Shown here: piece by piece, positions 44,342 to 46,896 of the stretch
Position numbering within the stretch: position 1 is the stretch's first letter
Layout of the letters: each line of letters opens with the position of its first letter
Source of the DNA: Natrinema saccharevitans
GTDB lineage: Archaea > Halobacteriota > Halobacteria > Halobacteriales > Natrialbaceae
Length of the DNA: 64,000 nt
Direction of reading: 5' to 3'
NCBI RefSeq assembly: GCF_001953745.1
Contig: NZ_LWLN01000001.1
Span: 868,001 to 932,000 of the forward strand
Position numbers and translations under genes: made by a program
Notes under the pieces: generated by a model
Told to the model about the DNA's origin: nothing
Database searches by the model: none
What the model saw: only the letters and a program-made list of their open reading frames with translations

Positions 44342-45901
44342 TTACGCGCCGACCCAGGCGTTCGTCGAGGCGACCGACGTGAGCTGGACGTTTTCGTTCT
44401 CCTGCAGGCTGATCTGTGAACTCCCGGCGCTGCCGCCGTCTTCAGCGACCGCGACGGAGGTGTGCTGCTCGTTCAAGTTCTCCTGCGTGATGAACTGCTG
44501 CTGGGCGATGGCGGCGCTTGCCTCCTGCTCGACGTCGTTCGTCTGCGTGGCGTTACCGGCGTAGTCGTACGACGTGCCGGGCGCCATCCCCGCGTTCCCG
44601 TCGACCGTGACGGTCGTACTCGAGGTCCGGGTGACGTCGTCGGAGACGTAGCCCGGGCTCGCGTAGACGTTGAGCGCGTCGGCGTAGGCCAGTTGCGCGT
44701 TGTAGTTCTGCTGGTAGGCGAGCTGGATCGCCGTGGCCTCGCTCCCGTTCTGTGCGAGGGCCATGGCGGTGTTCTGGAGGTTGATGTTCCGCTGTTCGAC
44801 CTCCTGTTCTTGGGCTACGGCCGCGGTCGCGGTCTGTTCGGTATCGTTGAGGTCGTCGTTCTTGTCCTTCTTATCGGGGCCGTGCGTGTCCGTCTCGGTC
44901 GAGAGAACCTCGCCGCTGACGTCGCCCGCGGTCGCGACGTTCATCCCGAGAGAAGAGGCCATCAGGTTCGAGGCGGTGGCGCTGCCGAACTGCTCGTTGA
45001 GGTTGCTCTGGTCGGTAAACTGGATCGCCGTAGCGGTGCTATTCTCGCCGATCGCGATGGCGACTGCACCGCCCTGTTCGTTGACATTCTGTTGAGCGAC
45101 GTCCTGGGACTGATCGAGCGACGCGGATGCGCTCTGGCCTGTTCCGGACTCGTCGCCGGATTTGTCCTTCGCGTGGCCGAACTCCCCGTCACCGAGGTAG
45201 ACGTTCGAAGCGTTGGCCATTCCCTCCTGTAGGTTCTCGTTTCGCTGGTAGGACTGCTGGAGTGCAGTCGCGTCGCTGTCGTCCATGGCGAACGCGAACG
45301 CGGTGCTCTGGTTGTTGTAGTTGACCTGGCCGACCGTCTGGGACTGGGTCACGCTGGCGATGGCCTCTTCGGTCTCGGTCCCATCGTCATCTTTCTTGTC
45401 CTTGATCCCCCAGCCGTCGAACTGCTGGTCGTCGCCGTTACCGATGATGATATTGACCTCGCCGACGTTCTCGAACTGCGTCTCCGCGCTCCGAACGTCG
45501 ACGTTTCCGGTGGTCGCCTCACCGGTCTGGACGTTGTCGTTCTGCTGGTTGGCCTCCTGAATGGCGGTCGCTTCGCCACCGTCGATCGCGATCGACACTG
45601 CCGAGCCCCGTTCTTGGAGCTCGACCAGATCGACGTCCGGATGCTGGATGACTTCGGCACCGGAACTGTTCGCATCGTTCGCGTGTTCGTCGATGTACTC
45701 CTCGAGCGACTGCTCACCGAGGTCCGCGCCGAAGACGAGATACAGCTCCTCGCCGTCCTCGAGCGTGTGTATCGTGTCACTGTTGGCCGCGGCGTCCTCG
45801 GCGGTCGCCGCGGGGACGCCGACTGCTACCATCGACAAGGCCACCATACAGGCCATAAGAACCGTCGTAGTTCGTGATCGTCTCGTTGTGTCGTGTTTCA
45901 T
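44342..45901 (-). CDS. Secreted five-module Q/N-ladder protein (curli-like amyloid candidate)
   Basis: 519 residues. A Sec signal peptide (residues 11-34, ending PAATA) leads into an acidic stretch, then five repeat modules at about 91-136, 179-236, 257-315, 356-414 and 459-517. Each module has the pattern Q-x-Q-x-V-x-Q-x-N-x-N-x-Q, then A-x-A-x-A-x5-A-x-A-x-Q, then Q-x-N-x-N-x-Q and A-x-A-x-N. Alternating hydrophobic/amide residues point to a beta-solenoid or amyloid fold. Spacers between modules are charged Asp/Lys/Gly loops. No Cys, no anchor and no sorting signal is seen. Divergent from two small paralogues at 46564 and 46893 that share the pattern. Confidence 0.8.
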   Translation of the reverse strand: MKHDTTRRSRTTTVLMACMVALSMVAVGVPAATAEDAAANSDTIHTLEDGEELYLVFGADLGEQSLEEYIDEHANDANSSGAEVIQHPDVDLVELQERGSAVSIAIDGGEATAIQEANQQNDNVQTGEATTGNVDVRSAETQFENVGEVNIIIGNGDDQQFDGWGIKDKKDDDGTETEEAIASVTQSQTVGQVNYNNQSTAFAFAMDDSDATALQQSYQRNENLQEGMANASNVYLGDGEFGHAKDKSGDESGTGQSASASLDQSQDVAQQNVNEQGGAVAIAIGENSTATAIQFTDQSNLNEQFGSATASNLMASSLGMNVATAGDVSGEVLSTETDTHGPDKKDKNDDLNDTEQTATAAVAQEQEVEQRNINLQNTAMALAQNGSEATAIQLAYQQNYNAQLAYADALNVYASPGYVSDDVTRTSSTTVTVDGNAGMAPGTSYDYAGNATQTNDVEQEASAAIAQQQFITQENLNEQHTSVAVAEDGGSAGSSQISLQENENVQLTSVASTNAWVGA

Positions 45902-46563
45902 TGATCGTTGGATTGGTGTCGTGATGGTCTTTCGTTTCTGAGTCTCTGCGATGCGAACCATCCTATCCGCATGAGTCCCTTTGTTATCTACAGGTTGGGG
46001 CCGGTATGGAGTGGACTAGAGATCCGAAGGTGACCGCTTACGGAACGAAATCGGAGACTTGGACTGCTGTAGCCCGTATTCGGCGAATTAAACGACCGAA
46101 TTCCGATCGTAAGTCGGCGTGACGAGAGAGCACGAAAACAGTCGATACTGTCCCGTCCCGACGATTGTTTCGGAGGTCGAATGCGGTGATTAGGGTTTCA
46201 TACTCAAGTACCAACGGCTTTACAGCGAATATTGCGGTGACGGCGTAGGGCGACGCTTCCGTCGAAACCAAAGGGGCGAATGCGCTACGATCAGCCGAAT
46301 CCGGATAAGGCCACGCCTACAGGAAGTGAAAAACCACTTGCAGCCGTAAGAGAAGCCCTCAGTCGCTCTAATTCCGCTATTCTTGCCGAAACCGTTTACC
46401 GGGTTCAAATAGGTTCCCGTTCAGGTGGCCACTGGGAAACGCGCCACAGCGGGGAGTGACCGGGAGACGACGGCCGAATTCGCGACGAGCGATAGCACCG
46501 TCATTCGACGGGACGGCCCCTCGAGGGCGGCCCCAGCGTGGCGTGGTACCCACACATAACACA
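45902..46563. other. Divergent intergenic region between repeat-protein genes
   Basis: 662 bp, lower in GC than its surroundings. Open frames on either strand carry no family features. A short hairpin (AAGTG-AAAAAC-CACTT, about 46323-46338) is present. No clear TATA at the usual distance before either start codon, so both genes may have leaders. Confidence 0.5.
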
Positions 46564-46896
46564 ATGAACCGCGCACTCACGCTCGCACTGACGGTAGCAC
46601 TGATCGGTGGCCTCGCGTTCATGGGGGCCGCGGGAACAGCCGCAGCGACTGACGACGGCCAGTCGAACGACGCGGACATCGACCAAGACCAGAGAGTCGC
46701 TCAGGGAGCCGACGTCTCGAGCGAGGACAGTTGGGCGATCGCAGTGGACTTCGGCGATAAAGGCAACGGTGACGGACCGACGGCCAACACCGGAAACGAA
46801 GTGAAGCAGACGTCGGACAATCACCAAAACGCTGACATCTACCAGGACAACGAGAACATCGAAGATTCCCTTTTCGTCGAACTGGGTGGCCTATGA
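46564..46896 (+). CDS. Small secreted Q/N-ladder protein 1
   Basis: 110 residues. Sec signal peptide (MNRALTLALTVALIGGLAFM ... AAA), mature from about residue 28. The mature part has QSNDADIDQDQRVAQ, then a Gly/Asp spacer, then NEVKQTSDNHQNADIYQDN and a tail EDSLFVELGG. The Q-x-N-x-x-Q spacing matches modules of the large protein at 44342. Its stop overlaps the next start by 4 nt (ATGA). Probably a subunit of an extracellular fibre; that is inference. Confidence 0.75.
   Translation: MNRALTLALTVALIGGLAFMGAAGTAAATDDGQSNDADIDQDQRVAQGADVSSEDSWAIAVDFGDKGNGDGPTANTGNEVKQTSDNHQNADIYQDNENIEDSLFVELGGL

Follow-up and report, generated by a model that had tools for sequence, protein, structure and literature searches.

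Conserved five-module glutamine/asparagine-ladder proteins of haloarchaea: candidate subunits of an amyloid-like matrix fiber

The question raised by the locus

The 64,000-nucleotide stretch of the Natrinema saccharevitans genome analyzed here (the window) contains a gene whose predicted product has five repeats in which Gln and Asn recur in fixed steps. An initial annotation, made from sequence alone, likened this product to the curli amyloid, attributed to it a Sec signal peptide and a role as a secreted fiber or matrix protein, and knew of no described haloarchaeal counterpart. Is it a curlin, a different amyloid-like subunit, or a surface protein that does not polymerize? The biofilm matrix of Haloferax volcanii stains with Congo red and thioflavin T, and HVO_1403, a homolog of a Sulfolobus amyloidogenic factor, was proposed as the gene for this putative amyloid (PMC4180959); that study describes no ladder protein.

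The ladder gene and its export signal

The gene and its parts are listed below in coordinates of the window.

44342..45901, minus strand: gene for the five-module Q/N-ladder protein, a single ORF of 519 aa plus stop
45800..45901, minus strand: predicted Sec-type signal peptide, residues 1-34 (ending ...GVPAATA, followed by E), by inspection; the hydrophobic N-terminus and AxA-like site are kept in homologs
45665..45799, minus strand: short N-terminal segment, ELYLVFGADL...SLEEY, conserved in 29 non-redundant homologs
45491..45664, minus strand: module R0, residues 80-137, HMM score 75.6 bits
45191..45364, minus strand: module R1, residues 180-237, 81.9 bits; two long strands in the AF2 tandem model
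44957..45130, minus strand: module R2, residues 258-315, 77.4 bits; two long strands in the AF2 tandem model
44657..44830, minus strand: module R3, residues 358-415, 78.7 bits
44348..44521, minus strand: module R4, residues 461-518, 71.9 bits

There is an in-frame ATG at 45961, 5' to the start at 45901, and the latter is favored because of stops in the relatives. Inspection of the N-terminus bore out the proposed Sec signal peptide, which has an AxA-like site; its Arg pair is not conserved and it is therefore not a Tat signal. Judged by eye from these features, the ladder protein is probably exported by Sec. Relatives carry PGF-CTERM tails, described below, and the protein is therefore expected to lie outside the cell.

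A long ladder of Gln and Asn residues

Each module is 58 residues long and follows the pattern AxAxVxQxQxVxQxNxNxQxxAxAxAx(4-5)AxAxQxxxQxNxNxQxGxAxAxN. The five Natrinema modules, which are separated by linkers of 21-46 residues, score 71-82 bits each against a module HMM that was partly built from the Natrinema protein itself. The motif QxNxNxQ is present in 9 copies in the mature sequence, whereas 20,000 shuffles contained 0.03 copies on average and never more than 2; at lags 2 and 4, Gln/Asn pairs show about a twofold excess. Over the five modules of 29 non-redundant proteins the ladder Gln and most of the Asn positions are 96-100% conserved, with 92% for the last Asn; this conservation holds both among the five modules of one protein and across genera. 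The mean entropy is 0.46 bits at the alternating ladder positions and 2.43 bits elsewhere. Thus the five-repeat Q/N alternation is real, and the ladder is longer than the initial annotation had written it. The ladder face is composed of 32% Ala, 29% Gln and 20% Asn with almost no charge, and a charged residue is favored at no ladder position.

N-glycosylation sequons in the ladder proteins do not exceed the frequency expected from composition. Most R1-R3 modules have a sequon at the turn; this placement was dropped as evidence since the ladder itself limits where sequons can fall.

Predicted structure of the modules

From an alignment with nine close sequences, AF2 produced no usable model of the full-length protein (pLDDT 27). 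For a two-module construct, with an alignment of 36 rows, the best model reached a pLDDT of 74.7 as a whole and of about 87 within the modules; the remaining four of the five tandem models were worse (34-59). In the one confident model, each module consists of two long strands of 24-27 residues with a turn of 3-4 residues between them. This model would fit a hairpin or a stacked arch alike and does not fix the topology; the QxNxNxQ run is a palindrome, and therefore both registers put like on like. Foldseek searches of the PDB gave no significant match, with FapC ranked first at E 0.15 and TM 0.12, and the VIA structural search gave no match. The Foldseek matches to FapC and CsgA fibrils, with TM of about 0.1, were set aside as support. 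A Gln/Asn-ladder amyloid-like fold is still the best reading, and these models neither favor nor argue against the beta-solenoid suggested by the earlier comparison with curli.

Distribution and architectures of the family

Searches of haloarchaeal genomes found a ladder-protein family, with strong matches in 99 of the 125 genomes searched from the GTDB family Natrialbaceae; 101 genomes gave a match, two of which (E about 0.006-0.008) were discounted as noise. A wider draw of 292 genomes of the class added three genomes from other families and nothing beyond. The ladder gene is also found on plasmids of Haladaptatus and Halomicrococcus, and in both of these the next gene encodes phosphosulfolactate synthase. 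Divergent copies of the ladder gene were seen on megaplasmids (loci L117, L118 and L120, and the plasmids just named). Pfam, NCBIfam, PHROGs and PDB sequence searches with the protein or its modules gave chance matches only, and no relative was found in viral contigs and phages. The literature searched held no description of the family and no haloarchaeal counterpart, in agreement with the initial annotation. The ladder proteins are thus a real, conserved and undescribed family.

Exactly five modules were present in all 36 of the 36 proteins counted, and the linkers follow a recurrent pattern of 38-50, 7-36, 33-62 and 33-74 residues, in that order. Most ladder proteins stop a few residues past module five. 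In several genera (loci L103-L106 and L109, Natrononativus and Halomicrococcus), a tail of 76-142 residues, mostly rich in Asp, Lys and Glu, ends in PGF-CTERM; TIGR04126 scored above cut-off in both relatives with PGF-CTERM that were tested. A third type of tail is short, often charged and without PGF (L107, L110, L111 and Haladaptatus). PGF-CTERM, with its PGF motif, transmembrane segment and basic tail, is absent from the C-terminus of the Natrinema ladder protein.

Small secreted partners divergent from the ladder gene

Two short genes lie upstream of the ladder gene and are divergent from it.

46564..46896, plus strand: small secreted Q/N partner 1, 110 aa
46893..47195, plus strand: small secreted Q/N partner 2, 100 aa, about one ladder module (module profile E = 2.6e-6)

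Both predicted products have a signal peptide and Q/N motifs, and the two genes overlap at ATGA, where partner 1 stops and partner 2 starts. Of 32 loci, 25 have a member of this small family running divergently from the ladder gene, at a distance of 284-1879 bp for the nearest. Elsewhere within about 16 kb of the ladder gene the family was found nowhere, in all loci but one; because the small-family model was trained on such divergent neighbors, this absence is the informative part. The small family and the ladder gene are present in the same 99 genomes, where the best small-family match is a separate short ORF in 88 and a weak match that may be a ladder-gene cross-match in 11, and both are missing from the same 26 of the 125. 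Several genera include members that lack both alongside others that have both.

Some of the small partners (L006:3551-4495, minus strand; L008; L009) have two Q/N half-modules with a variable insert of ~120 residues between them, in which there are two cysteines; the one insert tested had no Pfam match.

A promoter-like motif and neighboring glycan genes

The region 5' to the ladder gene contains a conserved sequence element.

45979..45988, minus strand: promoter-like motif GATAACAAAG, 87 nt upstream of the ladder start codon, with spacing conserved across genera

In nearly all the ladder homologs aligned, GATAACAAAG is located 86-87 nt before the start codon. One copy was found at the ladder gene in all 12 of the 12 other genomes searched, and in one genome (G068) at both ladder paralogs. 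Conservation across genera extends past the motif to the whole 87-nt leader (45902-45988, minus strand; GGTT.GCG.CG...); RNA structure was looked for in this leader and none was found. The small-partner genes showed no copy of the motif in the 150 upstream bases that were examined.

The Natrinema genome has five copies of the motif. In addition to the copy at the ladder gene (the other four being at C1:1049756, 1064856, 1077257 and 3216214), three are within 28 kb of an exopolysaccharide cluster and one is without an obvious gene. Of the three copies at the exopolysaccharide cluster, two stand 36 nt before their genes, one GNAT/FemAB-like and the other GFO/IDH/MocA, and the third precedes a hexapeptide acyltransferase gene with a DegT aminotransferase. 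Three further Natrinema genomes also have the motif ahead of the GFO/IDH/MocA and acyltransferase genes, and one other genus has it before the GNAT gene. Because it stands at about position -36 of genes that may be leaderless, its location suggests a core-promoter element, and it may be an alternative core promoter by which a matrix regulon is defined. The presence of this 10-bp motif at exopolysaccharide genes of two genera points to possible co-regulation of the ladder gene with exopolysaccharide synthesis.

In six other genomes (G016, G017, G084, G093, G109 and G119) the partner lies 27-34 kb from the ladder gene, with a 25-30 kb cluster of glycan genes between them (L121-L132). The cluster encodes glycosyltransferases of families 4 and 2, a polyprenyl sugar transferase, an ABC exporter-like protein, an AglB-like protein, epimerases, a nucleotidyltransferase and FkbM methyltransferases; Pfam was run on the G017 copies. 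It looks as if the cluster was inserted into the ladder locus, or was lost from it elsewhere, and its genes may make either a matrix polysaccharide or, with one AglB-like protein among them, a protein N-glycan. In these six genomes GATAACAAAG was not found at the glycan genes; within the cluster it was present at the ladder gene only or not at all. The links to exopolysaccharide genes, together with the signal peptide and the PGF-CTERM of relatives, back the earlier proposal of a secreted or surface matrix protein.

A proposed matrix fiber and its alternatives

The layout of the ladder protein resembles that of FapC more than that of curli, although no match in sequence was found. In FapC, each of the imperfect repeats joined by linkers forms one cross-beta layer with a conserved Asn/Gln network, as seen by cryo-EM (PMC12392863), and the ladder protein likewise has imperfect repeats, conserved Asn/Gln and variable linkers. 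FapC and FapB of Pseudomonas are also secreted, with imperfect repeats of ~50-60 residues, variable linkers, invariant Asn/Gln and a minor companion subunit. However, FapC canonically has three repeats rather than five, and the alternation in the ladder protein is longer and uninterrupted. The module profile gave two unrelated weak matches only against a file of PDB sequences, which may or may not include the FapC chains.

On the evidence assembled here, we lean toward the view that the ladder protein is the main subunit of an amyloid-like matrix fiber, with companion subunits and a co-regulated exopolysaccharide. We infer its polymerization, fold and role as follows. After export by Sec, each module would form one rung, made of two long strands and a tight D/N-G-type turn. 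Rungs would stack in register, both within and between monomers, with the stacked identical Gln and Asn side chains forming hydrogen-bonded ladders as in FapC and the charged linkers looping out of the stack. The one-module partners may nucleate, cap or join the stack, the PGF-CTERM anchor would tie the fiber to the cell surface in some genera, and the fiber would act in concert with the exopolysaccharide that shares its promoter type. In-register stacking predicts that the ladder should be conserved among the modules of one protein and across genera, as was found. More tentatively, and as a proposal that we find plausible without going so far as to favor it, the system could be a haloarchaeal counterpart of curli and Fap that is unrelated to them in sequence: a Gln/Asn-ladder amyloid of five rungs that has one-module companions of its own and is made along with a dedicated exopolysaccharide under one promoter type, anchored by an archaeosortase in some genera.

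The fixed number of five modules also fits a monomer that does not polymerize. The protein could then be a secreted or surface scaffold, in which the five beta modules make up one defined monomer that binds exopolysaccharide or other surface proteins with its flat Gln/Asn/Ala faces; it would be a matrix adhesin and no amyloid. Such a scaffold would accommodate the conserved, position-specific linkers as well as the module number, the association with exopolysaccharide genes and the PGF-CTERM-anchored versions. However, self-stacking is a better fit to a ladder that is strictly identical from module to module within a protein, roughly one third of the strip is Ala, and the ladder face has no aromatic or charged sugar-binding residues. 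We regard the scaffold as unlikely, though it deserves serious consideration.

Decidedly less probable is an S-layer-like coat or sheath, in which long antiparallel beta-hairpins with D/N-G turns would tile the cell surface. An archaeal sheath made from an amyloid-like protein does exist, namely SH of Methanospirillum hungatei (PMC10593813), and the ladder protein could play a similar role. The strands of the module are joined by a D/N-G-type turn, and at i+j = 60 both QxNxNxQ runs would face each other as a palindrome. On the other hand, the Natrinema protein is without a C-terminal anchor and the topology of the model does not settle the hairpin. SH shares with the proposed fiber an archaeal origin, an extracellular location, giant beta-sheets and an amyloid-like nature, but by description it differs in having six beta-arches with different side chains and a cap domain.

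True homology to curli (CsgA) is very improbable in view of four results, even though CsgA/CsgB share with the ladder system a signal peptide, regularly spaced Gln/Asn repeats, a small secreted companion subunit and divergent transcription units. The curlin repeat HMM, PF07012, gave no match at E<=10 for the ladder protein, for 26 single modules or in the genome, while an E. coli control was positive. The curli repeat is about 22 residues long with QxGxxN (minimal repeat X6-Q-X-G-X2-N-X10, PMC3521004), whereas the ladder module has 58 residues with QxQxVxQxNxNxQ; QxGxxN occurs once in the 519 aa, by chance. Alignment of the module profile with the CsgA/CsgB repeats by hhalign gave a probability of 0.2% over 8 columns, and CsgG (PF03783) is absent from the Natrinema genome. 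It should be noted that an archaeon, having no outer membrane, would not need CsgG. Membership in the curli family thus falls, and the reading as a Gln/Asn-ladder amyloid-like protein is still the best.

Significance

The new elements described here are the divergent, co-occurring small partners, the PGF-CTERM anchors, the glycan cluster in six genomes and the motif common to the ladder and exopolysaccharide genes. The staining of haloarchaeal biofilms with amyloid dyes has so far been without a convincing protein, and the ladder family is a concrete and widely conserved candidate that offers defined partners and a testable tie to exopolysaccharide synthesis. If the ladder system is indeed a counterpart of curli and Fap, it would be a candidate for the molecular basis of this staining. 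If the ladder protein polymerizes, it would represent an amyloid fold that functions in near-saturating salt and would be of interest to both structural biology and materials research, and Gln/Asn-ladder matrix fibers would have arisen more than once.
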